Below are positions 1,423 through 60,543 of a stretch of DNA of 64,000 nt, piece by piece. The stretch comes from Romanomermis culicivorax. Taxonomy: Eukaryota; Nematoda; Enoplea; Mermithida; Mermithidae. Every line of letters begins with the position of its first letter. Position 1 is the first letter of the stretch. The notes under the pieces were generated by a model. It searched no databases and was not told the origin of the DNA. It saw nothing but the letters and a program-made list of their open reading frames with translations. The stretch spans positions 124,001-188,000 of the forward strand of contig CAWUHX010000040.1 in assembly GCA_963922205.1 (NCBI GenBank), read 5' to 3'. Made by a program: the position numbers and the translations under genes.

Positions 1423-1702
1423 GGAGATTAAAGGATGATTTTAAGGTGAAACCAGGAGGGAGGCGCGGTGTTGCTTTCGGTTCGTTAGGAGGACACATGC
1501 TCTGAGAAGACGGTGGCTTGGGCGGTGATGTCACCTTGATGGGCGCATTTTGACAACTGGATCGGGCTACGATAGCGAGATGACGAGAGTTGTCATATGC
1601 GGAAATCAAAGCAGCAGCCGGTTGTGGACTGAAGAGGCCACAACTTGACGATGACGGGGATCGCGGCCGCTGACCATGGATCTCTGGTGCAAAACTACAG
1701 AG

Positions 1703-1912
1703 TTACCCATGGGGTCCCAAGCAAAAGAGCATGCAAGAATAAGCAGCAAAAGCATAAAACGTGAGAAAAATACCGTCGCAGGCGAAGCTTAGGTCGTTTT
1801 GGTGGGGCTGCTGCTCGGCCCAATGTACGTATCGTTCATTGACGTTAATTGATTCACGATACGGCGGAGGCTCGTCGGCCGTGGAGGTTGATCCAATCGA
1901 CGGCGTCGTCAT
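1703..1912 (-). CDS. Copy B ORF2: small PPPY protein with hydrophobic C-terminus
   Basis: This ORF of 69 residues starts at the ATG complementary to 1912-1910. It aligns with copy A's 66-residue ORF2, sharing the PPPYRES motif, the NVNERYV and FACDGIF blocks and the hydrophobic FYAFAAY tail. An insertion relative to copy A inside the tail keeps the frame, which argues for past coding constraint. The two copies differ at the last few residues through a two-base length difference. Although the neighbouring genes of copy B are broken, this small frame is still open. Function is unknown. Confidence 0.55.
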   Translation of the reverse strand: MTTPSIGSTSTADEPPPYRESINVNERYVHWAEQQPHQNDLSFACDGIFLTFYAFAAYSCMLFCLGPHG

Positions 1913-2423
1913 TTTGAAAAAATAAAATTTTGGGAGCGGCTGGAAAATGCGACTATTGCTGATGGAAGCGAAAGATGGAAATGAAATAGTAAAAGAATAA
2001 GCCGCTGAAAGTTGAAGAAAGTGTAAAGTAAGAAAATGCAAACACTACCATTGCGAAAAGCAATGCAAACACCACTATGTTAATGGGGACTACAATCAAC
2101 CTTTCCCAATTAGTCTTATGAGAGTGATAGCGGCCAGGGTCCGGCGGAAATAAACCGAATGGCCTCGCGCCAAACAGAACCTAACATTAAAGAAGAAACC
2201 CCCTCCTATCGCAAAAATGTGGGGACCGGGGCAAAGTGTAAGGTGATGGTGTAAAGTCGGCCGAGTCTGTTTGTAAAAGACGGGTCGAAGGGAAGTGTTT
2301 CAAAACCGCTGTGCATCCTTGCTCGTCAAAGAGGTCGCCATGATCTAAATTAAACAAACGTGAGGATTATTTACAACGCGGCGTGATGAGCGCCGTATTA
2401 CAAAAGAAAAATTTCAAAGCAAA

Positions 2424-5400: not shown

Positions 5401-8400
5401 TGTTGTGCGGTGTGGCCAGGGAACGATTTATCGAGTGCCGCCGGCTCGTGATCAGTTAAGTGGCGGTCGGCGGCGGCGGTTACTATCTGGCAATAAGCGT
5501 ATGTTTCAGAATACTCTAGCATGTGCTTTGCCATTGCGATGAGCTGATTTGGTCGGAGTTTGATGCTGTTTGGCGTGTTATTAATGAAAAGAAGCGGGCA
5601 ATGACCATTGGTGATGTTGACAACTGGGGTTTTGACTGGAAGTTCTGCGGCTATGTTGTCAGTGGCGAGGGGTTGTACAATCACCTCGGGAACAGTCGCC
5701 GATGTTGTGGGAAAAATGGTACTTTTGACCCATTAATGGCAGTGTGGCGAAATCGAAAGGGAAGCTTGGGCCACGAGAAAAATCGGTTCGGCGAGCTTGG
5801 TAACCTCCAACGGCCGAGGGGGCGGTTGGTGTGGATTAGGTTGAGCCTGCCGTATCGGTTGTTCAGCTTCGATTTCTTCGGGTTGGCTGAAAATATCGGA
5901 TTTATCGTCATAAAAACTTACTCGCTCGTCCTCTGGGATTTCTTCTAAGACATTGTCGTTGGCCGCGTTTAGGAACAATTCCATTCGAGGGCAGACCGAG
6001 GCGATTACCTTGAGCGGCAGTTTTACGTCTTGGATTTCTATGTAATTGTCTTTAAAATTCAAAATGGCATGGATATCTGGGTGCGCGAGGAAATCGGTCC
6101 CGATGATACATTGGTCGTTTCCATCGTCATCGAGGATTACGCATTTGATCATGTGTTCTCCGAACGCAGATTCCATCGTAACGACTATTGGGCCATGAGC
6201 ATTGACAACGGCGCCATCGGCTACTTTGATTTTTCCGCAAATCGGGAGTTGGAGCGATTGTTTGTCGAAAGCGGGTTTGACTAATCCTGAGGACAAGACG
6301 GAGCATTGGGCACCTGTGTTGATGAGCGCCTGTGCTTTAACGGCTCCAATTTTGATTGGAATTTGAAAGGCTCTCGTGGAAGCGTACTTGCGGACAAAGG
6401 ATTTGGAAGATGGAATAAGGTTATCAATTTGACAAACGGATGAGCAGATGTGGCATAGGTCCTGAAAAGCGCGGCCCGTTGCGTTCCAACAGACTATGCT
6501 GGGGCTAACAATCGGGGCGGCGGAAGTGATTCCTTTGGATGGGATGACCATATTGGCCAAGGACGTCCATTGGTTGTTAGCACGTCTTTCAAGCGGGGGT
6601 GTTGACGCGGCATTGGGTGCCGGAAGTGCGGGTAGGGCTAGTTGTAACTCTGAAGATTGAGAACTAGCGCGCGATGAGTCTGTCGGCATTGTGACGTATG
6701 GAGCCAGTACAGCATTGTAGTGAATATGTTGTTCCCATGGTGCCAGGAATTGATGGTTTGGGTAAACGGCGCAGGTATTCTGAACAAAATCATGTGGGTG
6801 CTGTATAGAATTACCTTCATAAAAATGGTTTCGCGCGCCGCGGGCGTAGTTTGTGCCTTGTTGGGGCGGTCCTCCGCGGCGGGGTCTCCAATCGCGCTGT
6901 CCATGGATTTTGTTCGAATTGGTTCCGAAATCAGCTTGCCGTGGATGGGCGGTGTAGTTTGGGCGGTTTGATTCAAGTCGGGTTACCTGTTGAGTGTTTT
7001 GCTGCTTGAGCCAGACCCAATCTTCGGTGTTGTAGGTGCGGGATTTGTGAGCGTCGCACCAAAGACCTGTAGGTTGTGTTGTGCATGCGCGATCGCGGCT
7101 GGTGGATCGGTCGAAGCGATTGGCGTACGGCTCTCTGTTTTGAGATTGATGATGCGGGCTGTGTTGCCTATTGGTTGGTAATGTTTCCTCTGGGCGTTGT
7201 CGTGATTTTCTTTCTTCGTAGTCGCGATCCTATCTCTGAATCAATTGTTCCAAGAGAATCTCCGTTCGCGGCGGATGCGGCGGCGGTGGTTCAATCGCTT
7301 GTGGTTGGAAAGAGACGAATTTAGTGGGTGGTGGTGTCGAATTTTGGAGCCTGCGATCCGTAGATGGAGAGCGCTCGCGGTAGTGGTGTTGGGGGTGGTG
7401 TTGGGGGCGATCCATGCTGCGGCGGCGTTCGAAACGGCGATCAAATGGTTGTGGAGACTTCAGTGGTGGTGCGTCCTGATCGGCTTGGTTTATGAGGATG
7501 GGTCTTTCCGCGGTTCCAATTTCGGCTTTGGTTGCATTGAGGACACTACGGGCTTTAGCTACGGCGTCGGCCAATTGTTGGACGTTTGTAAAGCTTTTGG
7601 CTTGTTCGCCAATTGTTAGTTGATAGAAAACAGGTATTTTTGTCAAAAAAGTGTCAATTACTTGTTTGTGCCGAAAGGTTTGATCTTCATGCTGATACAA
7701 TAGTTGTACATAAGTCATTACCTTACTTAAAAACGCGGCGGGTTCTTCTCCAGCTTCTGGGGTGATTGATGCGAGCTCGCGTTTGAGAGTCATCGGGTTG
7801 CAATCTGGAGCCAATTGGAACATGAGTAAATGTTTGGCATCTTCTTACCGAGTCATATCTTGGATCATATCACTCGGCGTATCGCGGCTGAGTCGGCGTA
7901 GTGCACTCATCTTTACATGGTTGGAGGCGTCGTAGCCGAAATCCTTTTCCAGGCGGATGAAGAAGTGTAGCAGAGGTTTATTTGTCACGGCGCCGTCAAT
8001 AATCAGCGGGTGCATGTTGTCGACAATTGTTTTGATGCGGCTATCTTCCTCATGATGAGACATGCGCGGCATGTTGTACGGAGGTTGCGGGTGGTCATAA
8101 TAATCTTCTGGTGGGTAGTCTGAGAAACCGAAGTGGTTTGCCCCGGGCGGTTGGCCTCTTATAAGCGCGGAATGGTGTAAATCTTCGTTGGCGCGTGTAG
8201 TGCAGGCGAATTTGTTATTGTACAGGGTATCCGTCGATGGCGCTTTAGGTTTGACTTGATTGGGTAGCCTGCCAAAGACTGGAGCCGGTTCAGTTTCGCG
8301 GAGGGTTTCGTTTGGGATATAAATATCTCTTGTTTCCTCGCAGTGAAATGGTGAGGACACCGGCGGCAGTCTTGGTGTGGGCGGATTGCGCGCATTAGTT

Positions 8401-9155
8401 GCGGCAGCGGTTGTGGAAATCAACTGTTGCATTTGCTCGGCGAGTGCGGCGAAACGCGCGTTTGTAGCTTTGGTTTGTTCCTGGATTTCGCGTTGGACGC
8501 GTAATTGCTGGGCTTGGAATTGGTCCGAAAGGGCACCGATAATTTGGTCGATCGTTTGTACAGTAGGAACATTGTTGGTTATGCGCGCAGCGGCGGTGTT
8601 GAGTTGGTCCAGCGCGTCGCGTGCTTCTATTCGAAAATTTTGAACTTCATTGGCATTTGCGATGGCTAGGCTGCTGCAGTGATTGTTTACTGAAACACAG
8701 GTGGCAGCTGGGGCTTGCGGTGGTTCGATATTGACAAAGGATTCGGAAGAGTCAGTTCTGGCAATGGTTTGGTCATTGTTATTTCGGGCCGCGGCACTTG
8801 GCGGCGGCATTTGCGGTGCGGGCGGCGCATTAGGGCAATTTACTGCGGCGGTAAGGGGGTTTTGATTTAGCGACCACGGGAGTTGAGAATTGATCATCGC
8901 CCCGGTTGTGGGAATGAGCGGTACTTGCGGTTGTGCCATCCCGTCCAGCGCAGGAGTACTGAAAGAAGACAAGGGCAGATTATGGGGCGGGAGGCTTACT
9001 GTGGGTACCGCTGTCGATTGCGCAATATTTGACAGTCGCAGTAATAACATTTGATCAAAACCTAGGGGGCGGCGTGCGGCTGTGGCGGCGTTCGGGGAAC
9101 TGGATCCCGAGGGAAAGTGGGTGAAGTCCGGTGGTGTGTGGCTTACTTTTGGCAT
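2424..9155 (-). pseudogene. Copy B gag-pol polyprotein, multiply disrupted
   Basis: It starts at the ATG complementary to 9155-9153 and aligns with copy A's gag-pol to 2424. Visible breaks include in-frame stops at 7845-7847 and 7230-7232, near 5733 and near 5391, and at 4029-4031. A small deletion near 5130 shifts the frame at the start of reverse transcriptase, and a one-base deletion near 4620 shifts it after the polymerase palm. The last cysteine of the gag zinc knuckle is tryptophan and the protease DTG reads NTG. YIDD of reverse transcriptase, the RNase H TDAS block and the integrase segment (3995 down to 2424) remain readable. Confidence 0.92.
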
Positions 9156-9293
9156 CTTTTTTTCGCAGGGTATAATAACCTCTTGTGTACCCTTTGGGGC
9201 AGCTGCGGCGGGGTCGAATTTTGGACTCTTTGAGCACTTTGGGATGCAACGCATCGGCGGAGAGAGGCAGCGTACAATCCAAGTGGTCACCAG

Positions 9294-9866
9294 TGTTGTA
9301 CGTCGTCTTTTGGGGCGGTGATGATGTGGCGTGAGCAGGATTGGGATTCCGAGGTTGCGTCCTTAATGTACGTGCTTCCCACACCCACATTTACCCGATA
9401 ATCTAATTACTGGTACTTAAACCCCAACACTAATTGTCCCAACAATTAAAGAAAGATCTACTTTCTTTAATTGTCTCCCTTATTGCGCAAGATCGAAAGG
9501 CAAGAATTTTCTACCTTTTTAATATTACGCAATAACACACAAAAACTTACATGAACAAAGCGGAGACGGGCAAGAAGAATAAAAACACAAAATCTACTCC
9601 CACGCACGGGCGAGAGAAAACGAAAAGGCGTGGTGGGAGGCGGGGAGTAATGACTAGTGGTGGCCAACGGGGCGCACAACTAGTAAGAAACACATAAAAA
9701 TTATTATACTAATAATAACAACCGAGAGAGACCAGCGCACGCGTACCGATGTGCGCTACAGTAAGATGGCTGCTGGTGGTCCGCGTTGCTCTCTCCACTT
9801 GCCACCTGCGGGCCTCTAACGCACTTTGACAAAATGATAAAAATCGGCGGAAAACACACTACAACA
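9294..9866 (-). repeat. 5' LTR of copy B
   Basis: On the minus strand it begins TGTTGTAGTGTG and ends ACAACA, 573 nt long, and aligns along its length with the 593-nt LTR of copy A, with many substitutions and short indels. One base past its end comes TGGTGACC, the same primer-binding-like sequence as in copy A. The divergence from copy A's LTRs shows that B is not a recent product of A. Confidence 0.85.
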
Positions 9867-9948
9867 AATATCCAAGTACTAAATAGTACAATGAATCAAA
9901 TGAATGAATGTACAAAACAACACACATACAGTGTCACGGAAGACGAGG

Positions 9949-10871: not shown

Positions 10872-11464
10872 TGTTGTAGTGTGTTTTCCGCCGATTTTTC
10901 ATTATTTGTCAAAACGCGTCACAGGCCCGCAGGTGGCAAGTGGAGAGAGCAACGCGGACCACCAGTGGCCATCTTACTGTAGCGCACGTCGGTACGCGTG
11001 CGCTGGTCTCTCTCTATTGATTATTCGTTACGTATACTTCACGTGTATTTTTTATTTTTCTTTACTAGTTGTGTGCCCCGCCGGCCACCACTAGTACGTA
11101 TTAGCCGCCTCCCACCACACTTTCTCGTCCTTGCTCGCCCGTGTGTGGGAGTGGAATTTTATTGTCATTTTCATTTTTCGTCTCGCCCGTAACGATTTGG
11201 TCACGTAAGTTCTTCATACGTTTTTGTATAGTAATAAATAGGTAGGAGAGTCCCCTTATTTTAGTAAGTGAGAAAAGAAGGGAGACAATTAAGGAAACTA
11301 GGTTTTCTTTAATTGTTGGGGATAATTATTGTCGGGGTTTAAGTACTAGTAATTAAGTAATCGGGTAGACGTGGGCGTGGGACGCACGTACATTAAGGCC
11401 GCAACCTTGGAATCCCAATCCTGCATCACACCGCATCACCCCGACCGCAAGGCAAGATATAACA
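10872..11464 (+). repeat. 5' LTR of copy A
   Basis: It begins TGTTGTAGTGTG and ends GATATAACA. It contains a consensus splice donor GTAAGT at 11205-11210 and an AATAAA-type signal near 11230. Its sequence matches the 3' LTR wherever compared, including two identical short chance ORFs. Confidence 0.96.
11205..11210 (+). promoter_or_regulatory. Candidate splice donor in the LTR leader
   Basis: GTAAGT in the context TCACGTAAGTTC is a consensus donor upstream of gag. With the acceptor at 18741-18742 it could make a subgenomic mRNA for ORF2 and ORF3. This is inference from motifs only. Confidence 0.35.
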
Positions 11465-11465
11465 C

Positions 11466-11483
11466 TGGTGACCGTTTGGATTG
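11466..11483 (+). other. Primer binding site candidate
   Basis: TGGTGACC starts one base after the LTR and begins with the TGG complementary to a tRNA CCA end. The same eight bases sit at the same place in copy B while the following bases differ (CGTTTGG versus ACTTGG). I cannot name the tRNA. Confidence 0.65.
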
Positions 11484-11600
11484 TACGTTGCCGCTCCCCG
11501 CTGTTGCGTCGCATCCGAAGAAATTAAAGAATTCAAAATTCGACCCCGCCGTAACTGCGCCAAAGGGTACAAACGAGGTTATTATACCTTGAGAAAAAAG

Positions 11601-14600
11601 ATGCCAACGGTAAGCCACACACCGCCGGACTTCACTCGATTTCCGTCCCGTTCCAGTTCTCCCAACGCCGCCACAGCCGCACGCCGCGCTTTAAGTTTCG
11701 ATCAGATGATGTTGCCGCGACCGTCAAATATTACGCAATCGGCAGCGGTCCCCGCGGTAAGTCTCCCGCCCCATAACCCGCCCTTGTCTAATTTCAGCAC
11801 TCCCGCACTGGACGGGACGGCACAGCCGCAAGCACCGCTCATTCCCGCAACCGCGGCGACCAACAATTCCCAAACTCCGCGGTTTGGAAACCAAAATACT
11901 CATGCCACCGCCGAAAATCGTCTCAACGCGCCGCCCGCATCGCAAATGCCGCCACCGCCCGCGCCGGCTCGAAGTAATGATGACCAAATTGTCGCCAGAA
12001 CCGACTCTTCCGAATCCTTTGTCAATATTGAACCGCCGCAAGCCCCAGCCGCCACCCGTGCTTCAACAAATGATCACCGCAGCAGTCTCGCTATCGCAAA
12101 CGCCAACGAAGTCCAAAATTTTCGCATAGAAGCACGCGACGCGCTGGAACAACTAAACACCGCCGCCGCGCGTATAACTAACAATGTCCCCACGGTACAA
12201 ACCATTGATCAAATTATCGGCGCCGTCTCCGATCAATTCCAAGCCCAACAATTACGCGTTCAACGCGAAATTCAAGAACAAACAAAAGCCACTAACGCGC
12301 GTTTCGCCGCGCTCGCCGAGCAAATGCAACAATTGATTTCCACAACTGCCGCCGCGACGCACGCGCGTAATCCGCCTACACCAAGACCGCCGCCGGTGTC
12401 CTCACGGTTTCACGGCGAGGAGACAAGAGATGTTTATATCCCTAACGAAACTCTCCGTGAAACTGAACCGGCTCCAGTCTTTGGCAGGCTACCAAACCAG
12501 GTCAAACCCAAAGCACCGTCGACGGATACCTTGTATAATAACGAATTCGCCCGCAGTACGCGCGCCGATGAAGATTTACACCGCTCCGCGCTTCAAAGAC
12601 GCCCACCGCCCGCGGCAAACCAATTTGGCTTTTCAGATTATCCACCCGACGATTATTATGAACACCCGCATCCTCGGTACGACATGCCGCACACGTCTCA
12701 TCGTGAAGAAGATAGCCGCATCAAAACAATCGTCGACAATATGCATCCGTTGATAATTGACGGCGCCGCAACAAATAAACGCCTGTTACGCTTCTTCATA
12801 CGACTGGAAAATGAGTTCGGCTACGACGCCTCCAATCACGTAAAGATGAGTGCCCTCCGCCGACTCACCCGCGATACGCCAAGCGACATGATCCAAGATA
12901 TGACGCGGTACGAAGACGCCAAACATTTGCTTATGTTCCAGTTGGCGCCCGATTGCAATCCGATGACTCTTAAACGTGAACTTGCGTCAATCACCCCAGA
13001 AGCTGGAGAGGAACCCGCCGCATTCTTAAGTAAGGTAATGACTTATGTACAACTATTATATCAACATGAAGATCAAACTTTCCGGCATAAACAAGTAATT
13101 GATACCTTTTTGACAAAAATGCCTGTTTTCTATCAACTCACAATTGGCGAACAAGCAAAGGGTTTCACAAATGTTCAACAACTGGCCGACGCCGTAGCCA
13201 AAGCCCGTAGTGTCCTCAACGCAACTAAAGCCGAAATCGGAACCGCGGAACGACCCATTCTGGTAAATCAAGCCGATCAAGACCCACCGCCTCCGAAGTC
13301 GCCGCAACCGTTTGAGCGCCGTTTTGAACGCCGCCGCAGCATGGACCGTCCTCAAAACCGCTACCGCGAGCGCTCTCCCTCAATGGACCGCAGGACGCAA
13401 AACACGGCGATGCAGCCCAATAAATTCGTCTCTTTCCAACCACAAGCAATTGAACCAACGCCGCCGCAACCACCGCGCACGGAGATGCTCCTGGAACAAT
13501 TGATTCAACGATACGACCGCGACTATGAAGAAAGAAAATCTCGACAACGCCCTGAAGAAACGGCACCCAACAATAGGCATCAAAGTCCGCGCCACCCATC
13601 TCAAAACAGAGAGCCGTACGCAAATCGCTTTGACCGATCCGCCAGCAGAGACCGCGCACGCCCGGCGCAACCCACAGGTCTGTGGTGCGACGCTCACAAA
13701 TCCCGCACTCACAACACAGAAGATTGCGTCTGGCTCAAACGGCAAAACGCTCAACAACAAGCCCGAATTGAACCAAATCGCTCAAATTATGCCGCCCAAC
13801 CACGGCAAGTTGACTTCCGAAATAATTCAAACGACGTCCGTGGACAACGCGATTGGCGACCCCGCCGCGGAGGACCGCCCCAACGTGGAGCGAACTACGC
13901 CCGCGGCGCGCGAAACCAATTTTATGAAGGTAATCCTATACAACGCCCAAATGATTTTGTTCAGAACACCTACGCCGTCTACCCGAACCATCAATTTCCG
14001 GCGCCGTGGGAACAACATATCCACTACAACGCGGTACCGGCTCCATACGTCACAACGCCAACGGATTCATCACGCGCTAGTTCTCAATCTTCAGAAATGC
14101 AAATTGCCCTACCCGCCCTTCCGGCACCAAACACCGCGCCCGTATCTGCGCTCGAAACACGCGTTAACAATCATTCAACGTCCGCGGCCAATATGGTCGT
14201 TCCATCCAAAGAAATTGCTTCCGCCGCGCCGATTGTCAGCCCCGGCATCGTCCGTTGGAACGCAACAGGCCGCGCTTTTCAAGATCCCTGTCATATTCGT
14301 TCGTCCGTTTGTCAAATTGATAATCTAACGCCATCTTCCAAATCGTTTGTCCGCAAATACGCTTCTACGAGAGCCTTTCAAATCCCAATCAAAATAGGAG
14401 CCGTCAAAGCACACGCGCTCATCGACACAGGTGCCCAATGTTCCGTACTATCATCAGGTTTGGTCAAACGCGCTTTCGACAAGCAATCGCTTCAACTCCC
14501 GATATGTGGAAAAATTAAAGTAGCCGACGGCGCCGTAGTCAACGCTCACGGCCCGGTAGTTGTCACAATGGAATCCGCCTTCGGAGAGCACATGATCAAA

Positions 14601-17600
14601 TGCGTGATCCTTGACGACGACGGAAACGATCAATTCATCATCGGAACCGATTTCCTCGCGCACCCCGATATCCACGCCATTTTAAACTTCAAAGACAATT
14701 ATATCGAAATTCAAGACGTTAAACTGCCGCTCAAAGTAATCGCCTCGATCCGCCCGCAAACGGAATTATTTCTCAACGCCGCTAACGACAACGTTTTAGA
14801 AGAGATACCAGAAGACGAACGAGTAAGTTGTTATGATGATAAATCTGATATTTTTAGTCAACCCGAAGAAATCGAAGTCGAACAACCGATTCGGCAGGCT
14901 CAACCTGGTCCACACCAACCGCCCCCTAGGCGGTTGGAGGTTACAGAGCTTGCCGAACCAATTTTTCTCGTCGCCCAAGCTTCCGTTTCCATTTCACCGC
15001 ACTGCCAACAATGGGTCAAAAGTAGCGTTTTTCCCACAACATCGGCGACAGTGCCCGACGTGATTGTACAACCACTCGCCACGGATAACGTTGCCGCAGA
15101 GCTCCCAGTCGAAACCGCAGTGGTCAACATCACTAACGGCCATTGCCCGCTCCTTTTCATCAACAATACGCCGAACAGTATAAAACTACGACCAAACCAA
15201 CTCATTGCGATGGCAAAGCACACGCTGGAGTATTCCGAAACCCACGCCGATTGTCAGATAGCAACCGCCGCCGCCGACCGCGACTTAACCGACCACGAGC
15301 CGGCCGCATTGGACAAGTCATTCCCTGGCAACACCGCTCAACAAAAGCTGGAATACGCCCTGAACAAAATGACGGAAAAGACGTATGTTTCTACCGCGCA
15401 AAAAGAGAGAGCCCTCAAGATGCTCCGACAACACCGCGATGTTTTCAGCCTCCCCGGCGATAAACCAACCATCACTAGCGAGTTGACCGTCAGCATCGAT
15501 ACCGGCACCGCAAAACCAGTTTCCCGCCATTACTACCGCGCCGCGATGGAACAAAGACCGATTGTACGCCGCCATATCCAAGAAATGCTTGACAACGATT
15601 TTATCGAACCATCCCGCTCACCCTGGGCCGCACCGCTATTTTTGGTAAAGAAAAAGGACGGCTCGTGGAGACCCGTTGTTGACTACCGTGGAATCAACGA
15701 TGTTACGCCAAGCGACAAATTCCCAATCCCGCGCATCGACGACTACCTAGACGCAATGGGACACGCAAAGTTCTTCACCACGCTCGACCTCAAAGCAGGA
15801 TACTGGCAAGTACCCCTCGACGTCGGTTCCCGCGATAAAACAACCTTCATTTGCCAAGAAGGTTTGTTTCGCTTCAAAGTTTTACCGTTCGGCTTAAAGA
15901 ACGCGCCCGCCGAGTTTCAACGCTTAATGGAACGAATCCTCCGCCCGTATATCTGGAAAATCTGCCTCGTCTACATTGATGATATAATCATTTTTTCGAA
16001 TTCGTTTGAAGAGCATTTGGAACACCTTCAAATCGTTTTTGACGCCCTCCGCGCTGCCAATCTTACGCTTCGACCCGACAAATGCGAGTTTCTGCCGCCG
16101 CAAGTCAAATTCTTGGGACATCTTCTTAGCGCCCGCGGAATCGCCGCCGATCCCGAGAAAGTCAAAGCGATCGCCGAATACGAATTTCCAAAGACTAAAA
16201 AAGGTATGCAAAGTTTTTTAGGTCTAGTTCAATGGTGCAAGCGATTCATTCCGAATTTGGCGACATTGTCCAGTCCTTTGTACGGCCTCCTACGCAAAGA
16301 CGCCCAATATTTCGCCACGGATGAACATCACGCCGCTTTCAAAGGCATCAAAACAGCCCTTACGTCGTCGCCATTCCTCCGATATCCCGTCTACGATGGC
16401 AAAGCTCAATTCGTTATTCAAACCGACGCTAGTACGACCGCCATCGGAGCAATTTTGTACCAAGAAAACGAACACGACCAATGGGTCATCGCCTACAATA
16501 GTCGCGTACTCACCGATGCCGAAACCCGCTACAGTACAACTGAGCGTGAATGCCTCGCCATTGTATACGGTTTCCGGATGTACCGCCACTATGTGTACGG
16601 CCAGAAAGTTATTGTCCGCACTGACCACAAGCCCCTTGAATGGCTCAAAGACGAAAAACATCGTAATTCACGACTCCAGCGCTTCGCGATCAGTCTACAA
16701 GATTACGATTACAAAGTGGAATATGTTAAGGGTAAGGATAACGCTTACGCTGATTTTTTATCTAGGAAAGATGATCGCGACAAATGCCCGATCCAAAACG
16801 CTGAAAACTTGACCGCCAAGATCTTCCGTGAAAATTTTCACCCTGCTGGTGCAACTACGGAAACCGACTTAACGGTACCGGAAACACGCCCAGCAGTGGC
16901 TCCACTATTCACGGAAGTCGACGCCGAAATCAACGCCATCACCCGTGCGATGACAAGAAAGACCATCAGTTCACCCACACTCTCTAATTCAATGCCTAAG
17001 GATGCCGACCACGAACCGCCTCCGGCCGAAGCCATTACGATTGCCGCTCACGAAGATGTTTTAAAAGCTCAAGCCGCAGATCCAGCCATAACGAAAATCA
17101 TCGCCTCTCTCAAGACGGATAATGCCGCCAAACACCCGCCGATTTTCTTCCTCGAAGATCAACTTTTGTACCGGCATATCAAAGATGTCAAGCAATTAGT
17201 CGTACCCGCCTCATTGGTCGACCAAACCCTTCATCAATTCCACGGCGCAAAAATTTTGAATCACCAAGGAACCAATCGTACGCTAGCCGCCATTAAAGCT
17301 CACTTTTGGTGGCCCCGCATGGAAGAGGACGTTCGGGATTGGATCAAAACCTGTAAAATTTGTCAACTAACAACACCGCGCACGTCACCGCCTCCGCCGT
17401 TGTTGCCAATTCAACCCAAGCATCCATTCGAAATTGTGGCTACCGACATCGTCAACATTTCGCCAGTAGGTGAGAAGCGTCCCTACGTTATTGTTTTTCA
17501 GGATTACTTTACGAAATTCGTATCCGCGCACCCGATTCCGGATCAGAAAGCCTCAACAATAGTGGAATGTTTTATCAACAACGTCGTCCTTACGCACGGT

Positions 17601-18329
17601 AGCCCACTCGTACTCCTTTCCGATCAAGGTGGATGCTTTACGTCAAAACTCATGCAAGATATTTGTGAACTTCTCAAAATTCGAAAAGTCAAGACAACGG
17701 CGTACCACCCCCAGTGTAACGGAATGGTCGAACGTTTCAATCAAACATTGATCGCTCAACTTAAAAAGTATACCGCCGACGATCCAGACAACTGGGAGCG
17801 ATACCTGCCCTACGCCGTGTTCGCTTACAACGCCACGCCGCATACAGCCACACGACATTCGCCGTTTAGTTTATTACGAGGATATGAACCGCGCATCACT
17901 TTCGACTACGATTGCCCCTGCCGCCTCACCTTGCCCTTGAATTACGACGCTTATCAACATATTCTAACGCAAGCCCAACTTAAGATGCACGAAAAGATCA
18001 AAGCTAACCTCGATGCCGCAGCCGCCGCCAGCAAAGAATATTTTGACCGCAAAGCTCGAAGACGCGACTTCGCCGTCAACGACTTAGTTCTTTTGACCAA
18101 CACGCGAAAAGCCAACAAGATTCAACCCGACTTCATCGGGCCTTTCCTCATCACGGACGCTTCCCGCGCAGCCGAAAACGTTGTTACCATTGACGCACTC
18201 GACGCGCCCGGCCGCCCGCAGACCGTCTCCATAACGCGTCTAAAACCGTTCATCCCACGACCGGCAAAGAATACTTTTGACAACGAAGAAGGCGGACCCC
18301 GCACGCCCCACACTTCCCGCCGGCAATAG
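11601..18329 (+). CDS. Gag-Pol polyprotein (Ty3/gypsy), 2242 residues, single frame
   Basis: The start is the ATG at 11601, 136 nt past the LTR; the frame is open slightly upstream but has no earlier ATG. Gag is alanine/proline-rich, then structured, and ends in a basic arginine-rich part. It carries a zinc-knuckle-like C696-X2-H-X4-H-X4-C709, where the usual second cysteine is histidine. The protease aspartate is in DTGAQ (D942). Reverse transcriptase spans about 1300-1480 with YIDD at 1458-1461. The RNase H aspartate is D1609. Integrase has an H1881/C1918-C1921 zinc-binding region and a D1949, D2008, E2044 triad (D-58-D-35-E). A GPF-type C-terminal segment follows, with no chromodomain seen. 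Gag and pol are fused with no frameshift or stop. It should act in cytoplasmic particles and then integrate cDNA into chromosomes. Confidence 0.97.
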
Positions 18330-18410
18330 TTCGCTTTGAAATTTTCTTTTGTGATACGGCGCTCATCACGCCGCGTTGTACATAATCTTTGTGTTTGTTT
18401 AATTTAGATC

Positions 18411-18650
18411 ATGGCGACCTCGATAACGAGCATCGATGCACGGCAGTTCCAACGTTTCCACGCAATCCATCGTTTTTGCCCTCAACCGACTTTACAATGT
18501 CACTTTACACCCGGTCTCGGTTTCCACACTTACGCAATAAGAGGGGGTTTCTTCTATAATGTTAGGTTCTGTTTGGCGCGAGGCCATTCGGTTTACTTCC
18601 GCCCGACCCTGGCCGCTATCACTCTCATAAGACTAATTGGGAAAGGTTGA
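18411..18650 (+). CDS. Possible accessory ORF of copy A (79 aa), unassigned
   Basis: This ORF starts with ATG in a good context (ATCATGGCG). Copy B keeps the first codons nearly unchanged (MATS, then TS, then DA), but its frame stops about a dozen codons in. The product would be rich in histidine, phenylalanine and arginine, and I recognise nothing in it. It may be untranslated leader for ORF2 and ORF3 rather than a gene. Confidence 0.22.
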   Translation: MATSITSIDARQFQRFHAIHRFCPQPTLQCHFTPGLGFHTYAIRGGFFYNVRFCLARGHSVYFRPTLAAITLIRLIGKG

Positions 18651-18741
18651 TTTTACTCTCCATTAACATAGTGGTGTTTGTGTTGCTTTTCGTAATGATA
18701 GTGTTTGCATTTTCCTACTTTACACTTTTTTTCACCTTTCA

Positions 18742-18742
18742 G
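18742..18742 (+). promoter_or_regulatory. Candidate splice acceptor before ORF2
   Basis: A run of pyrimidines followed by CACCTTTCAG ends here, close to the nematode acceptor consensus. Copy B has CAACTTTCAG at the same place. It could be used to express ORF2 and ORF3 from a spliced RNA. Confidence 0.4.
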
Positions 18743-18836
18743 CGGCTTATTCTTTTTACTATTTCATTTCCATCTTTCGCTTCCATCAGCAATAGTCGCA
18801 TTTTCCAGCCGCTCTCAAAAATTTTATTTTTTCAAT

Positions 18837-19037
18837 ATGACGACGCCGTCGACCGCATCATCTTCCACGGCCAACGACCCTCCGCCGTATCGCGAATCGA
18901 TAAACGTAAACGAACGTTACGTCCGCTGGGCCGAACGGCAGCCCCATCAAAACGATTTAAGTTTCGCCTGCGACGGTATTTTCTCATTTTATGCTTTTGC
19001 TGCTTATACTTGCATGCTCTTGCTTGGGACCCCATGA
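18837..19037 (+). CDS. ORF2: 66-residue PPPY protein with C-terminal hydrophobic segment
   Basis: The start is the ATG at 18837. The N-terminus is serine/threonine-rich, followed by PPPY, a known WW-domain-binding and retroviral late-domain motif, then a polar middle, and finally a hydrophobic stretch (FYAFAAY then CMLLL) long enough to touch or cross a membrane. The frame is conserved in copy B with an in-frame length difference, and upstream of this ATG the two copies are not alignable in frame, which supports this start. Position between pol and ORF3 is where env-like or accessory genes sit. A role in membrane targeting or budding is inference; no signal peptide or glycoprotein features are visible. 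Confidence 0.55.
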   Translation: MTTPSTASSSTANDPPPYRESINVNERYVRWAERQPHQNDLSFACDGIFSFYAFAAYTCMLLLGTP

Positions 19038-19325
19038 GTATCTTCCCCTCTGTAGTCTTGGGTCAGAGTTCCATGGTCAGCCGCCGCGATCCCGTCATCG
19101 TCAAGTTGTGGCCTTCTCAGTCCACAACCGGCCGCTGCCTTGATTTCCGCATACCACAACTCTCGTTATCTCGCTATCGTAGCCCGATCCAGTTGTCCAC
19201 GTGCGCCCATCAAGGTGACATCGCCGCCCAAGCCAACGCCGCCTCAAAGCATATGTCCTTCTAACGAGTTGACGACACCACAGCGTTTCCCTCTTGGTTC
19301 ACGTTTACATCATCCTTAAAACCCC

Positions 19326-22300
19326 ATGTCGTTCATTCGACGTGGCGTCCCATGTGTCACTGATGAGTATCACATTCGCTCTTGTTTAGAAAACAACGTC
19401 AAACGCCTAACTCGCGTCGCCGATTTAGAGTCGTGGTACATTTCCATGTACGCGCGACCCCCGAACGTCTTGCCGCCGCCGATTTTCCTTTCACCCGGAA
19501 GTTTGGGACAGGCCTTGGCCGTCCAACCCACACCAAACTTCCGTGGCTACACGCTGGTCGGCTTTGACACCGAATCCATCTCGGCCGCCGATTTCAAACA
19601 ATTTCAATGCACCGTTCAAATGCCAGCCGACCTCACGGCGTCTAGTTACCCCCGCTACGTTCAACTTGCGTTTCCGAACGGCACAATGTTCGTCTTCGAA
19701 ACGTTCACCGCCACCCCAGAAGACTGGACCGCGCTTTTCGCCCTAGTCGACGGCGACCACACCATTGTAGTCTCTTTCGATGGAGCCGACGACTGGGCGG
19801 GAATCTACGCGCTTCTGGGCACTCAATTTCGCACCGACCGGCAAAAGAAGAACAAAGATCCCGTCGTGAAAGCAATCCACTTCGACGCGTACCGCGTCAT
19901 CCGCAATATCGACATATCTCCGCCACTGTACGAGTTGGCCCGCCGAATCGGTTTCTTTCCGGAAAAACGCACGCTCAAAGCCACAGTCTCCGCAATGTGG
20001 GCGCTAGACGTCTCAAAGCTCACCTTACGCTTTCCTCACGCTCTACGCTTTTTCAACAATCCAGCAACGTCGTTTCTACAATCCGACGTTTTGGCCTACG
20101 CGGCCCTCGACGCCTACTATCCGCTGTTATTGTTCTTGGCATTCGGTCGTTACGGTTTCATCCCCGAGGTCTACAACGCGCCAGCGTTGTTTCCCCACGA
20201 CTCGTTGGACGCCGCCGAAATCGACCACCTCGCTGAGTACGTCATCGCCACTTTTCACAACGTCGCGCTGTCGGATGTCTTGCCTCCCGACTACGCCAAC
20301 CGGATCTACCCGACTACGTCACAAGTGGCCTTGCCCGCGATCATGCGAGATGAAGTTCTTTCAGCATACAAATTTTTTATGTATGATTGCACGTCGTCCG
20401 ACCACGGTCGGTCTTTCTGTTTAGGAACGGTTCCCAACGGCTTCAAAGACGTCAAATCCTTGACGCGGACAACTCACCCGAAGCTTCTTCCCGTTCCGAA
20501 AGTGCCGAAAAAGAAGAAAAAGAAACAGAAAGACGAATGGAACAAGTCACCAGACGTCTCCGACGACGAAGACCCGGCTCTAAAACCGCAATCAGTGTTC
20601 GATGATCCTAAACGTCTTCAAGCAGCCGTTACGTCGGCCATGAAAAGCAATCTCACCCACCGCATCATCGAGTTGCTCAACTTCCCGCTTTCACCGATAT
20701 ACAAGTTGGCCGTCCGCGATCGTATGCCTTACAACGATCCCAACTTGCCGCCGCTTCCCCACGAAGTCGAAGATCTTTGGACCGAACGCGTCGCTGCCGA
20801 CCAACCCCTACGCGAGCGCACTTATAACGGTACCCATTATCGTTATCACCCTTCAACCTTCCTTAATTTTTTACAGGTTGATGGAGAATGGTTCCGGAAG
20901 CTAACGACTTTTATGCCGTTAGCAGCGCTTCTAGCTTCACCATGCTCCGCCGCGGAATACGCCTGGGTCAATGACGTCCTCCTCCGCCACGCGCAATCAA
21001 TGACGCCAGATACACGTGCCGTGTTCTACGAGTGCATGTGGTACCGAAGCGACGGCAACCCCAATTCGCTCCTCACGACTTGGATGAACCGCATTCCGGA
21101 ACGCGAGCCCAGTTTTTCGGCCGACTCGAGCACGTACATATGCAACCGCTTCGCGTTACGCCCGATCGTGTTCGACGAAAACTTCCACATGGAAACGTCG
21201 GTAGAAGAAGTCGAAATCGATGAAAACGATTACACGGCCAATCCACATAGCCGTTTCCATTTTTATTCGACGTTTATCGCGCTCATCGACCATCAAAACC
21301 GCCTTTCGTTCCCCGCGCCGGTGTATGCGTACCCCATGCCGACTACGGCTTCGGTGCACACGCTCACCGCCGAGGAACTCCTCGACCGCCCCACCGACGT
21401 TGAAGTTGAACCCGCCGACGATGAACTACTTGAAACGCCAATTTTCGATCTCAACATAGCGAAGCTGCCGCCGTCAACAGACGTGTCGGCCCTTCCTATG
21501 GTACCCGCGCCTTCCGATATTACCGCAACTGCCACGCAAATCAACGATTTCCTGAAATTGATGCTAGACGAAATTTCCAACATCGCTCCGGCCCCGATGG
21601 ACGAGTCCACACCCGTCCAACCCGCCGCGATTGACTCCGAGACAATGACGTCAGAGCAAATGTTGACTGACATACCCGAAGAAAGTACGGTGGACCAATC
21701 CACGTCTATGGACGTCACCCCTATGGAACCAGCCGCTGCGCCTATCACCACGGCACCCGCTGTGGATCCACGAATATATTTGGCGACGCCGGCCGTTTTG
21801 CCGGGACCTCCGCTTATCGCTACTGTTGCCGCAGCCAGGTATAGTGCTCCTGTACGTTTTTCGCAACAGTTTATTTCAGCTCCGCAATGGGACGCTTTGG
21901 CCGCAGCACTGACCGCGCATCATTTCCCGCCACCGCCGCCAGGTATGCTATTTCCTGAGCACCAATGGAAAGATTTCCCCGAATCGTTGAAAGAACAAAT
22001 ACAACAAATTTTGTTGCCGCAACCGACGTTGATCGCTCCGGCCCCGCAAGTAGCTCCAATGGCTCCCGCGATGGCCCAACCCGTCACGCAATTACCGGCT
22101 CCGTTACCGCCGCCGGTCATATCGCAACCGCAAGCGATCTCGCAACCGCCGCAACCAGCGATTCTACCGCCGCCGACGGCGCCTGTGGATGTCCAAACCC
22201 CACAGGCATCCAGCACGTCCGTGCCGGCCTTAGATCGCTATGGTGATCCCATCAGAAGACCCGGGCGGTATGAACATTCGATAAAAAGAAAACAACAGCT

Positions 22301-24068
22301 TCAGGACGAATCAGCGTACCGCAAATCTCACAAGACCAAAACATCGGACGAACCGAGTACACGGCGTACGCCGCCACCCAGCACCTCGCGTGCTGAGCGC
22401 GGCCGAACGCCCAGTGAGCGCACCACTCGACGCCGTGAACAACGCGATAAGCAAAGAACCCGCGAAGAAGCCGCACGCTCTTCGCACGCTACGTCAACGC
22501 CGAAACCCAAACGCGATTCTTCCAAAACAACAGCGTCGGCAACGTTACCGCCGCCTGCTCACAAGACAGACAGTCACCGTTCACACCACGAGTCCCATTC
22601 TCGTGATGACCGCCACCGAAAAGAAACGAAACAAACCCCAGCAACCGGCAGGGATAGCCGCCAACACGAACGCCGCGATGACGCACCGCCGCATCGTACT
22701 CAGAGCGAACAAACCCGTAAGGTGCACACAACGGGTTTTTACGAAGAACACTATCGCCACGGTTTCCGCCGTTCACGGACGAAATTGACCGACTATATTA
22801 GCCCATTGCACCGAGACGCCGAAATCCAGCGCCGCCTGGAAGCTCTAAAGAATCCGCCGAAAGATGAATTTAAAGCTCCGCTCCCGCCGCCTCCTATGGA
22901 CGGGGAGCCCGCACAACCCTCGACTACGCCTACGGTAACGTCGCAGCCGCCCACGGCTCCGACAACCGCCATATCGACCACGGTAACCCACACCACGTCG
23001 CTGCCGCCTACGGCCCCGACGTCGGCTCCGGTTACTGCGGTCCAACAGCCGCATATGATCATCACCACCAAACCGGTCCTTGGAGTTCCGTTGCCACCAA
23101 GTTCCGCGCCAGCAATCAAACCCCGGTTGCCTAGCGAGGCTAAGCGCTTGCCGAACTATACGCGTTTCCGTACTACCGATAAGCCGCACGCTGTTACGAT
23201 TGCCACGCCGGGCTATCCGCCACATATTGACCCGGCCGTTGAGTTTTTCTCGCCGCGCACGATGCACGAGATGGTGCTGATCAATTTTTTCGGGCGCCTC
23301 CGCATTCACATCATTATGCCGGTGCACATACGCGCCACGAACGCTTCACTGGCGTTGTACCAATATTTCCGCGACCACTACCGCCCCTCGTACGTAGAAC
23401 AGCAACCACCGATCTCGCACGCCGTTGCCACGGTAATATTGAAATGGGTCGCCAGTCTTTGGGCCGAGGAGCTCGGCGTCGTTGACGCCGTTCACACCGC
23501 CCATTTGACGCTTTTCCTCTACGAAGCCCGCGGCCTGGACAATCCTTCGTGCCTGCTCCAAGCCTACAACACCGCTGTCGGACTCATCGACAGCTGGATG
23601 GCTTACCCAGACTACGCACCGTTTCCACAGCCGCCCGAACTCGCCGACGTCCGAAAACTTTATTTACACTACCATAGCGAGACGGATCGCCCCGCGCCCG
23701 TGCTGCGTCGGCACGATTTCTCTGCCCGGTGGAATCTTTTACCACCGCGACCGTTGCCGCCAACAGGGACGCCGTCCGACAAACCGTCGTTAATCGCGAC
23801 TCAGTTACCAGCGCCGGGCATTAACCCGCTATCGCCGCTCCCGCCTCAAACGTCAACTTCGTCGTCTCGCCGCCGGGATACCTCTGACTACGGTCGATCC
23901 CGCTATTCTCGTAGCTACCGCTTTGACGGCCACGAAGATCCATACGATCCCCACGGCTACCACATCGAACGCCAACGAGAAAGAGAAAGAGAACGAGAAC
24001 GAGACCGCCGCGATCCGCCACGAAACCACCGTTCAGCGTCCGACACTCGTTATCGCCGCCGCCACTGA
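19326..24068 (+). CDS. ORF3: 1580-residue protein with N-terminal DEDDy 3'-5' exonuclease domain
   Basis: The start is the ATG at 19326, with no earlier in-frame ATG. Residues about 70-285 read as a DnaQ-fold exonuclease: motif I FDTES with D81 and E83, a motif II candidate around D152-D156 (FDGADDW), and motif III YAALDAY with Y258 and D262 in the Y-X3-D spacing that defines the DEDDy subgroup. Arrangement and a leucine-rich helix before motif III resemble WRN, EXD2 and MUT-7. A lysine run lies near 393-400. Residues about 430-700 look globular but unassigned. About 700-1250 is proline/threonine-rich with basic RS/RE patches and three PTAP tetrapeptides (near 950, 1209 and 1227). A second compact domain lies at about 1285-1470, and the tail is RE-rich. 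Catalytic residues are intact here but not in copy B. No env-like features are seen. Confidence 0.85.
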
Positions 24069-24473
24069 TCACGAGCTTTTGTACAGTAACTTTTACTTCT
24101 TTTTCGTTTTTGTTGTTTTCTTTTAACCTCATTTTTCACACCGGTTGTTTATTTTCTAATCTCGTTCGTGCTTTATTATTTTGTACTAGTGATCCCAGCG
24201 CACGTGCAGCCGACGCTGCAAACACACAGTAAGTTGACCGCCGGTGGCCCGCTACACGCCCCCACTTGCCCCGTCCTTGTTCGTACACTTCGCCGCCGGG
24301 CTAATGGTCGCAGCCCCAAAAATCGGCTCAAACTACCCCAACAACTCCGCCGGCCCCGCTGTGTGACGCCGAAGACTCTTCGGCAACCCCGGCGACGGCC
24401 TGTAGTGGCGGAGCCCTTCCCCTTGCACGTTCTTTTCGGTATTTCTTGACGATCGCTTAGGGCGATCTACTGC
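24069..24473 (+). other. 3' untranslated part of copy A
   Basis: This noncoding stretch lies between the ORF3 stop and the polypurine tract. I see no ORF or domain in it. Confidence 0.6.
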
Positions 24474-24486
24474 AAGGGGGGAGGGG
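24474..24486 (+). other. Polypurine tract
   Basis: AAGGGGGGAGGGG lies immediately before the 3' LTR, the expected place for the plus-strand DNA primer of an LTR retrotransposon. Confidence 0.9.
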
Positions 24487-25079
24487 TGTTGTAGTGTGTT
24501 TTCCGCCGATTTTTCATTATTTGTCAAAACGCGTCACAGGCCCGCAGGTGGCAAGTGGAGAGAGCAACGCGGACCACCAGTGGCCATCTTACTGTAGCGC
24601 ACGTCGGTACGCGTGCGCTGGTCTCTCTCTATTGATTATTCGTTACGTATACTTCACGTGTATTTTTTATTTTTCTTTACTAGTTGTGTGCCCCGCCGGC
24701 CACCACTAGTACGTATTAGCCGCCTCCCACCACACTTTCTCGTCCTTGCTCGCCCGTGTGTGGGAGTGGAATTTTATTGTCATTTTCATTTTTCGTCTCG
24801 CCCGTAACGATTTGGTCACGTAAGTTCTTCATACGTTTTTGTATAGTAATAAATAGGTAGGAGAGTCCCCTTATTTTAGTAAGTGAGAAAAGAAGGGAGA
24901 CAATTAAGGAAACTAGGTTTTCTTTAATTGTTGGGGATAATTATTGTCGGGGTTTAAGTACTAGTAATTAAGTAATCGGGTAGACGTGGGCGTGGGACGC
25001 ACGTACATTAAGGCCGCAACCTTGGAATCCCAATCCTGCATCACACCGCATCACCCCGACCGCAAGGCAAGATATAACA
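24487..25079 (+). repeat. 3' LTR of copy A
   Basis: It has the same length (593 nt) and, wherever I compared, the same sequence as the 5' LTR. The target duplication CAAT follows at 25080-25083. Confidence 0.96.
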
Positions 25080-35200: not shown

Positions 35201-38200
35201 GTACCAAAATTTAAAGGTTATATATTTTATAACATACCTTATGTTATAACATATCTCATGTAGTTACATATACCAGGTATTAGCATATGTGCACAAAATA
35301 TAGCAGCCTGATTAAGAAAAAGAATAAGTTATAAGAACATAATATATGGCTTCCATATGTAAAATTTTAAAAGAAATACTTTTACTGCATGTTATGACAT
35401 AGATGATTGTTATAACATATTTTGCATGTTGAAAAATAGAATATAACAAATAAAATCTCTCTATAAATGTGAGCATCATGAGCCCCAATATCTAGTGAGA
35501 TACTAAATCCTATATTAAATACTATAATGTACCTTAGATCAGTCGCAAAACAATCGAGAAGCTTTGCCAAATAGATGGGTGGTACAAACTGGTGAGTAAT
35601 TAAAAATATTACATATAGTCTGTTTTGAGCTATTAAAACCATGGGTATCAAATTTTCGTGATATCTCAAAGTTGGAGTGTTTCATTACTAAATAAGATTT
35701 TAAGGTATATCACCATGTGTATGCAGAATTTTCCTTTTTTCAAATTTTTATCTTGATTTTTACTGTAATTTTTGAGAAAAGGTCTAATTATGGGTACACC
35801 AGGTCAGTGTTCTATTTAACACAAAGCTATCTCTAAAATGAGTGTTTCATTTATTCTGCCGTGCCAATATATAATTCTCAACATTGCATAATGCATGGAT
35901 TGTAGGAGATGGTGAATTTAATTCAATTGAATTTAGTTTAATTTAATTTAGTTCAATTTAATGTAGTTTAATTTAATTTAGTTCAATTGAATTTAGCTCA
36001 ATTTAATTTAGTTCAATTTAATTTAGTTCAATTTAATTTAGTTCATTTTAATTTGGTTCAATTTAATTTAGTTCGATTTAATTTAGTTCAATTTAATTTA
36101 GTTCAATTTAATTTAGTTCAATTTCATTTAGTTTGATTTAATTTAGTTTAATTGAATTTGATTCAATTTAATTTAATTTAATTTAATTCAATTTAATTTA
36201 ATTTAATTTAATTTAATTTAATTTAATTTAATTTAATTTAATTTAATTTAATTTAATTTAATTTAAGTTAATTTAATTTAATTTAATTTAATTTAATTTA
36301 ATTTAATTTAATTTAATTTAATTTAATTTAATTTAATTTAATTTAATTTAATTTAATTTAATTTAATTTAATTTAATTTAATTTAATTTAATTTAATTTA
36401 ATTTAATTTAATTTAATTTAATTTAATTTAATTTAATTTAATTTAATTTAATTTAATTTAATTTAATTTAATTTAATTTAATTTAATTAATTTAATTTAA
36501 TTTAATTTAATTTAATTTAATTTAGTTTTATTTAACTCAACAAAATTCTATTTAATTTAATTCAACTTAATACAATTTAATTTTCAAAATTCAACATAAT
36601 TTCATTAATTAAATTCAGTTATCATTTATTCACAATTAAATTTAACTTTGAACATTTATTTTTTTGTTTTTAGATCGTTCAACAAATGTTCCAACCTACA
36701 AAAACATCATTTGTAACAATCCTGCTGAAGCGAATGATATCTATGTGGATGGCAACAGCGTTTTCAGATGTAATGGTTTAGTGGAGACTTTCGAATGTAA
36801 GTCATGTGTGCCTCTAGTAATGGCATTTTTAGAATAGGGCAATGCATATATTTTAATCATCACCATGGGATTCTTGTGGTAAGCCAGTTTGTTCAAGCTC
36901 AGTGTTGAGCATGGACATATGAACATTCTCGAAAATTCTGTTCATTCATCACGCAGCAAGTACAACAAGTACTATTGCGCCTCGGTCCGCTTATCCATTT
37001 CTTATCTTGTGTCTTATGTTTAGAGGTCTCTGCTTAGATCCGAGAATGTCAGCAATATGACTAAAGAGTCTATTGGCTTGTATCAAACTTGCTACCATAG
37101 GTCACTCAAATGAGCTTCTTATTGGTAAAGCCTGATACAGCGCAACAGTTCTTTAGCAGACCTAAACACAACCTTCAGTCGCTATACAGCAACTGAAATC
37201 CAACAGCTTACACGTGAAAAACTACCAGAGTAGTCCAGAGAACCTTATCCAATGGCTCTGGTAAAAGTCGGGAATGTGAGACCCTGCTGTAGCAGAATAT
37301 ATGTGGCCCAATACACCACTGAAGGGGCAATATGTATAATCAATAAATAAACAACGATTGGTGGCCCTACTTTACTGACGTAAAAAGACAATAACAAAAT
37401 TATGGCCGATGGGCGGCTTGCACAATACACATAGAAATTGTGAGAATAATGACGCCTTTTCGCCACTTTCACAATTTGCATGGATGGGATGCCTGCTACC
37501 CTAAGTGCATTCCCGACATGTGGGTTCTGGGTTCAAACCCCTCACCAAGTATTTTTTTCTGGTACACCAGCCATGCGAATCACTCGAAAGTACCCGACCA
37601 CTTTCCACAATTATTAAATATTCTACTGTTTTTTCGAATTTTTCAGATTGTATAGCCTGCGACCACAAAAGCGACATATTTAGCGGTCAACTGGTTACTA
37701 TGGAAAGTTTACGCAAATATGCCCCTAGTATTAAATACGGAAGTAAAATTCCAAAAAAGTCTGATGATGAATGTTGTAACGTTTTATTCCACTTTTTCTT
37801 TAGATGAAACGATACAAATGCAGTATTGCAACAAACATATGGATAGATGTTCGCTACCAAACGGCAAACCACTGGATCCACCAGGTAACACATAATTGTG
37901 TGCTGCCTAGGCCAAGTAGAGTTTTCTCTATCTTTAGTCTACAGAAAAAACACATTAACAAAAAGTTAGCTACATGCAACATATGCCACGAAATTGCATA
38001 TGTTATACATTGGATTATATCATAACATGACATATTTATTTTATAACATGCAGTACATTGATGTGGGATAGGTTATAACATGATATATGTTATAACACGA
38101 GATAGATTATAGCTTACCATATGTTATAACATGAGATATGTAATAACCTACGGTATGTTCTAACATGACGTATGTTATAACATAGTGTTAATGGTAATAT

Positions 38201-51018: not shown

Positions 51019-60543
<9,525 letters not shown>

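Follow-up and report, generated by a model that had tools for sequence, protein, structure and literature searches.

What is encoded by the large open reading frame (ORF) that lies between pol and the 3' long terminal repeat (LTR) of a Ty3/gypsy retrotransposon in Romanomermis culicivorax, a clade I nematode and mosquito parasite, and is it maintained by the element? The stretch of DNA analysed, hereafter called the window, comprises 64,000 nucleotides (bases 124001-188000 of contig CAWUHX010000040.1, C40) of a 359,112,060-bp, 595-contig assembly, which was also the genome searched; the R. culicivorax v2 assembly is reported as 359.1 Mb in 595 scaffolds (PMC10879605). An initial annotation had described this frame, ORF3, as part of an LTR retrotransposon and as carrying an intact DEDDy-type 3'-5' exonuclease domain. 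The ORF itself, its FDTES motif with D81 and E83, and Y258-A-A-L-D262 were exact as written, and membership in an LTR retrotransposon was confirmed by protease, reverse transcriptase (RT), RNase H and integrase domains. We consider it quite probable that the N-terminal part of ORF3 is a diverged exonuclease domain of DEDDy type with a selected function, a judgement that covers identity and selection and excludes role. The features on which this rests are as follows.

10872-25079, plus strand: complete Ty3/gypsy LTR retrotransposon, recognized by its LTRs, TG...CA ends, target duplication and Pfam domains
19326-24068, plus strand: ORF3, an open reading frame of 1580 amino acids from the ORF list, in the env position between pol and the 3' LTR
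19533-20195, plus strand: predicted DEDDy-type exonuclease domain, ORF3 amino acids 70-290 (D81, E83, D156, Y258, D262), supported by a profile match, a related-family bridge and selection

Identity of the exonuclease domain

The D-x-E, exo-II aspartate and Y-x3-D elements occur in order in ORF3 and are kept in a related family, family B, described below. A Pfam scan of the window ORF3 gave no PF01612 match, and among 31 family members one weak match was seen (P0013, E 0.092). No match was found in a search of PDB sequences with either the window domain or its family profile. A profile search was made against five RNase D-like sequences, among them Escherichia coli RNase D, a NrnC and a reconstructed ancestor of diDNases. 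The window-family profile matched this set with a score of 32.3 (E 3.9e-4), compared with 20.0 for the best of 40 shuffles. With three family B sequences added, the score was 39.7 (E 2.5e-5, 123 columns), and the best column shuffle reached 20.8 among the 199 with a result (200 made); these profile E-values apply to a single comparison. Single-sequence stretches taken from pol and ORF3, thirty in all, scored at most 22.5, the top one being ORF3 amino acids 1-241 itself. As a positive control, family A, a further family whose PF01612 membership is certain, gave E 8.9e-8.

The best-supported part of the profile match lay around exo III. When forced long, the alignment was colinear at about 19% identity; it placed D81 and E83 close to DTE and matched D156 to the exo-II aspartate of RNase D. 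D156 also aligns with a conserved aspartate of family B. Based upon these two alignments, in which D152 and D155 do not take part, the exo-II residue is most likely D156 and not D152 or D155, as initially proposed; in other respects the annotated domain stood, its acids being intact and its profile match above all shuffles. Since the window ORF3 lacks a PF01612 match and a family B locus falls under the Pfam cut-off, the predicted domain is classed as DEDDy-type and diverged, and not as a certified PF01612 member. With PDB and PF01612 matches missing for the window sequence, it is more diverged than had been implied.

Two AlphaFold models were poor (predicted local distance difference test, pLDDT, 44.7 and 58.5), with a strand and helix order that fits. 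Foldseek and VIA-align 2 lists obtained from these models held unrelated entries and no exonuclease, and were taken as uninformative. Weak matches to PF14258 (DUF4350; E 0.01-0.057), under its cut-off, were set aside.

A protein search with full-length ORF3 gave no match at E<=1, and all 97 matches to the domain belonged to R. culicivorax. With the family alignment, 7996 candidates were scored and 142 matched; all 120 listed were from R. culicivorax, with no rotifer protein among them. Because candidates were restricted by length and shared words, these searches do not establish absence of the domain elsewhere. One ORF3-family fragment (UniProt A0A915K5M7, P0102) is named a DNA-directed DNA polymerase at its source, perhaps owing to its exonuclease-like part.

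Related families in the genome

A whole-genome PF01612 search gave 119 matches at E<=10, 95 of them flagged as over the cut-off, host genes, if any, included. In the fetched places of family B (L100-L109), open frames reach 1396-1398 amino acids; from 3371 candidates, 112 matches to this family were scored. The family B locus L100 aligned with amino acids 21-317 of the window ORF3 at 24% identity (E 2e-27), with the five catalytic positions kept, and the catalytic motifs were present in all nine family B loci read, which correspond to seven places. L100 matched PF01612 with E 0.0015, under the cut-off (18.8 bits, with 23.6 needed), and gave nothing credible against PDB sequences. The integrase upstream of L100 is 50% identical to that of the window element, the L103 integrase matched the latter with E 2e-130, and the C-terminal part of the integrase is 43-44% identical in L104-L109. 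Based upon the alignment, the PF01612 match, the kept positions and the upstream integrase, we therefore assign the same predicted domain, at the same place, to family B, a related gypsy-type family as classed by its integrase. Past amino acid 317, the window ORF3 had no match within the fetched parts of family B.

The open frames of family A (L070-L099) reach 614 amino acids. The three ORFs scanned matched PF01612 with E 2.8e-10 to 3.3e-12, and D-A-E was present in 22 of the 23 motifs found by pattern. In 21 of the 30 loci, a region homologous to the window integrase was detected by BLAST just upstream of the ORF. The integrase call for this family rests on that comparison because Pfam reported no integrase over the cut-off in the four upstream ORFs scanned, giving only rve_3 (E 0.038) in L071. 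A specific kinship between the window family and family A was too weak to claim (hhalign E 0.0054, and E 0.0023 with L100-L102 added).

The best PDB sequences for L071 were a mut-7 homolog (E 9e-5) and WRN (E 0.0021). The initial annotation had suggested that ORF3 carries a captured MUT-7 or EXD2 exonuclease. This origin was not supported, as the divergence of the window domain prevents its placement with the tools used, and the only best matches to a mut-7 homolog and WRN come from L071, a member of another family.

Could the resemblance be a chance arrangement of motifs in a domain that is not a DEDDy nuclease? The missing PF01612 and PDB matches of the window sequence and the poor structural models all weigh in that direction, and against the identification proposed here. 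Set against them are the shuffle control, the bridge through family B to PF01612, and the certain DEDDy ORFs at the same position in family A. On this evidence we regard chance as improbable.

Selection on the domain

The window also contains a diverged relative of the element, which serves here as evidence on selection.

25-9867, minus strand: second copy of the same element family, diverged, frame-broken and cut by the window start

This copy, which was not picked for similarity, is 84% identical to the window element across 9.9 kb, and its ORF3 carries 1-base indels plus D81N. For the exonuclease domain, the ratio of nonsynonymous to synonymous divergence (dN/dS) between the two was 0.068 (0.034-0.112), or 0.050 (0.016-0.112) without CpG codons. 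The corresponding values were 0.048 for RT/RNase H, 0.144 for gag and 0.03-0.14 across the gag-pol ORF; all are rough, since dS is near 1. No stop was found in the 221 codons of the second copy's domain. The gap between pol and ORF3 gave 1.17, as expected of non-coding DNA; together with five stops in the second copy, this led us to reject its ORF (18647-19264) as coding, except for an exon in another frame that is described below. Purifying selection acts on the exonuclease domain about as strongly as on RT.

The window family is highly abundant: 117 genome matches were scored at 96-100% protein identity, and 112 of these lacked an internal stop. Sixty of the 116 copies other than the window element were fetched (DNA identity 93-99%), a sample biased to intact copies by its protein identity of 96-100%. 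Among these, the ratio of nonsynonymous to synonymous polymorphism (pN/pS) was 0.06 for shared changes and 0.27 for singletons. Counting the window, D81, Y258 and D262 were each kept in 61/61 copies, D156 in 59/61 and E83 in 58/61. In UniProt gene models, which are largely broken copies, the catalytic positions decay like other positions. We read this as a moving lineage that keeps its catalytic residues and dead copies that lose them. A pN/pS of 0.01 in the exonuclease domain of L002-L009 was set aside because these loci had been chosen as the best protein matches; in the same loci, amino acids 401-700, which the query did not cover, give 0.03-0.12.

Expression of ORF3

ORF3 was annotated as starting at the ATG at 19326. 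The frame is present, and comparison of copies points to a different start.

18837-18975, plus strand: proposed ORF3 exon 1, 46 amino acids with a DPPPY motif; conserved ATG, no indels, peptide shared with gene models
18976-19389, plus strand: proposed intron, GT...TTTAG, with donor and acceptor conserved across copies
19390-24068, plus strand: proposed ORF3 exon 2, open until the stop at 24068

Exon 1 lies outside the query used to pick copies. Its ATG was kept in 61/61 copies and indels were found in 0/60; changes shared by several copies numbered 7 nonsynonymous and 15 synonymous, over 107 and 31 sites respectively, and there was one singleton stop. The intron donor GT was present in 60/61 copies and the acceptor in 61/61, and 15 of the 60 copies had intron indels that are not multiples of three and would break the frame. 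A peptide similar to exon 1 starts two gene models of R. culicivorax, P0011 and P0017. P0011 has the 18975/19390 junction, and the splice phase at 19390 restores E22 in agreement with it; P0017 uses a different acceptor. An acceptor was found at the homologous place in both family B loci read, and a further upstream acceptor (TTTCAG, 18742) in the window and three other copies. The conserved exon, the intron with frame-breaking indels and a kept acceptor, and the P0011 junction together point to a spliced mRNA as the probable source of the ORF3 product, in parallel to CERV of Cer1. The ATG at 19326 and ORF3 residues 1-21 are then probably intronic, and translation would begin at the ATG at 18837 in a separate exon.

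The DPPPY motif is present in the five commonest exon 1 variants and resembles retroviral late domains. Between pol and exon 2 (18330-19389), a stretch that is largely non-coding, the window element and the second copy differ at about 10-13% of the non-CpG sites that lie outside exon 1, while synonymous sites are near saturation; a functional RNA or recombination could explain this low divergence.

Position between pol and the 3' LTR and env-like splicing would also suit a membrane protein of the env type, in which the nuclease-like part is incidental. A simple hydropathy scan of ORF3, with exon 1 left out, gave no clear transmembrane segment, and the sole 19-residue stretch above 1.6 was the exo-III helix itself. 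We regard an env-like protein as very improbable.

Possible roles of the ORF3 product

We propose that a Ty3/gypsy lineage of R. culicivorax carries ORF3 as an accessory gene, located in the env position and probably expressed from a spliced mRNA. In its product, a diverged 3'-5' exonuclease domain of DEDDy type would come first; after it come a lysine cluster and an extended part that is mostly rich in proline, serine and threonine.

20508-20525, plus strand: lysine cluster KKKKKK, ORF3 amino acids 395-400, a candidate nuclear localization signal

Given this cluster and the lack of a clear transmembrane segment in the scan above, a nuclear RNase would be the simplest picture, with catalytic activity, RNA as substrate, nuclear site and role each predicted for the exonuclease. 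Such an enzyme might assist the element, perhaps against small interfering RNAs (siRNAs) made by RdRP/Dicer.

The initial annotation had argued from MUT-7-dependent silencing in nematodes. MUT-7 belongs to the Mutator complex, which makes 22G-RNAs (PMC11347159). Clade I nematodes, R. culicivorax included, are reported to be without 5'-triphosphate 22G-RNAs and without PRG-1 and PIWI-interacting RNAs (piRNAs) (PMC4323106), and the argument is not supported. The authors of the rotifer work considered that a MUT-7-like silencing role would render the element self-limiting (PMC5408684). Its relative Trichinella is described as methylating transposons and as using Dicer siRNAs of 23-25 nt whose 3' ends are unprotected, and R. 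culicivorax as having methylation machinery (PMC4323106). A 3'-5' exonuclease could attack Dicer siRNAs with unprotected 3' ends. We tentatively rank first, at somewhat below an even chance, a role in weakening host silencing by trimming such siRNAs. A broader proposal is that retrotransposon lineages of this clade I nematode, in a host lineage using Dicer siRNAs against transposons, carry dedicated exonucleases as silencing suppressors, a nuclear DEDDy enzyme trimming the guide siRNAs of DNA methylation and so aiding the rise of these families to many intact copies; this is speculative and on the whole doubtful.

The same domain could instead trim or mature the 3' ends of the element's own RNA or complementary DNA (cDNA), as suggested for rotifer elements. 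DEDDy enzymes process 3' ends of RNA and single-stranded DNA, a role proposed for such ORFs (PMC5408684, PMC6431247), and selection on the domain is near RT strength. ORF3 lies outside gag-pol and therefore need not enter particles. To our knowledge, other LTR elements replicate without an exonuclease. We place this role second, as possible but rather unlikely.

A third reading takes the domain as a dead or nearly dead nuclease that binds RNA within an export or packaging factor. CERV is encoded at the env position of Cer1, comes from a spliced mRNA and is required for genomic RNA export (PMC10309623), Maelstrom and EXD1 are described as inactive DEDD derivatives (PMC5408684), and the lysine cluster would fit as well. 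That the catalytic positions persist across families only 24% identical, and in 58-61 of the 61 close copies from a sample biased to intact ones, argues against a dead nuclease. We consider this non-catalytic role unlikely, and allot a small remaining chance to some other role.

Layout of the element and other features of the window

The remaining parts of the element are as follows.

10872-11464, plus strand: 5' LTR, 593 bp
11481-18329, plus strand: gag-pol ORF encoding protease, RT, RNase H and integrase in a single frame, by Pfam
24487-25079, plus strand: 3' LTR, 593 bp, with a purine tract before it

The two LTRs show 0 differences, and CAAT, a 4-bp target duplication, is present on both flanks. 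The TGG of the primer-binding site begins one base past the 5' LTR; this site and the polypurine tract are Ty3/gypsy hallmarks, and the order of Pfam domains (protease, RT, RNase H, integrase) is that expected of the group.

Between the window element and the second copy (10872-20733 compared with 9867-25), divergence in coding parts was about twice as high at CpG-involved sites as at other sites (0.25 versus 0.12-0.16). Singletons in the 60 copies were raised at CpG for transitions and, unexpectedly, for transversions (0.185 versus 0.045 per site). Because transversions are also elevated, the CpG decay is not claimed as a pure methylation signature. Elsewhere in the window, tandem arrays were found at 35915-36583 (period 15), 43460-48011 (17/100/404-440), 51160-53317 (252/159/341) and 55131-57436 (38/347), among other periods, and an ORF at 57709-58224 contains an actin domain fragment (Pfam E 4e-29), likely a host exon adjoining repeats.

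Comparison with known systems

The exonuclease ORF had been presented as unusual for Ty3/gypsy elements. It does not stand alone: DEDDy-type ORF3s are known from the bdelloid rotifer LTR elements Juno and Vesta and from Terminons (PMC5408684, PMC6431247), so the general kind is already described for LTR elements (Rodriguez 2017, PMC5408684), and LTR-transposon polyproteins are said to have a DnaQ-like exonuclease among their well-known accessory domains (PMC6338049). What is new here, as far as the literature found shows, is the nematode host, the great divergence, the splicing, the selection and the presence in related families. Exonuclease ORF3s of LTR elements are thus no mere rotifer oddity. 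In a nematode, selection keeps one about as strongly as it keeps RT. The exonuclease is common to two related gypsy-type families, with no other ORF3 similarity found between them in the fetched parts, and family A has a different, clear DEDDy enzyme at the same place. The function of such ORFs can now be tested, through substrate, localization and effect on siRNAs, in a lineage reported to be without piRNAs.

Among characterized exonucleases, RNase D and NrnC (PF01612) share profile similarity across the window domain and the same catalytic positions. In contrast to RNase D, to which it is about 19% identical over the long alignment, the window domain has an insert between exo II and exo III and forms part of a giant protein. 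MUT-7/Nibbler and WRN belong to the same superfamily and are the best PDB matches of family A locus L071, whereas the window domain and its profile gave no PDB match. CERV of the Caenorhabditis elegans element Cer1 is likewise a large protein encoded at the env position of a nematode gypsy element and produced through a spliced mRNA (PMC10309623); it differs in that the main text of that report mentions no exonuclease, and the likeness drawn here is one of position and splicing. In the rotifer elements Juno, Vesta and Terminons, a DEDDy-type ORF likewise lies between pol and the 3' LTR (Rodriguez 2017, PMC5408684), a placement matched by 18837-24068, and in rotifers, as in R. culicivorax, several retroelement lineages within a single animal genome carry exonuclease ORFs (PMC5408684). 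Compared with the rotifer ORFs, to which it is likened by position and domain type, the ORF reported here has a nematode host, a length of 1580 amino acids and a separate first exon.
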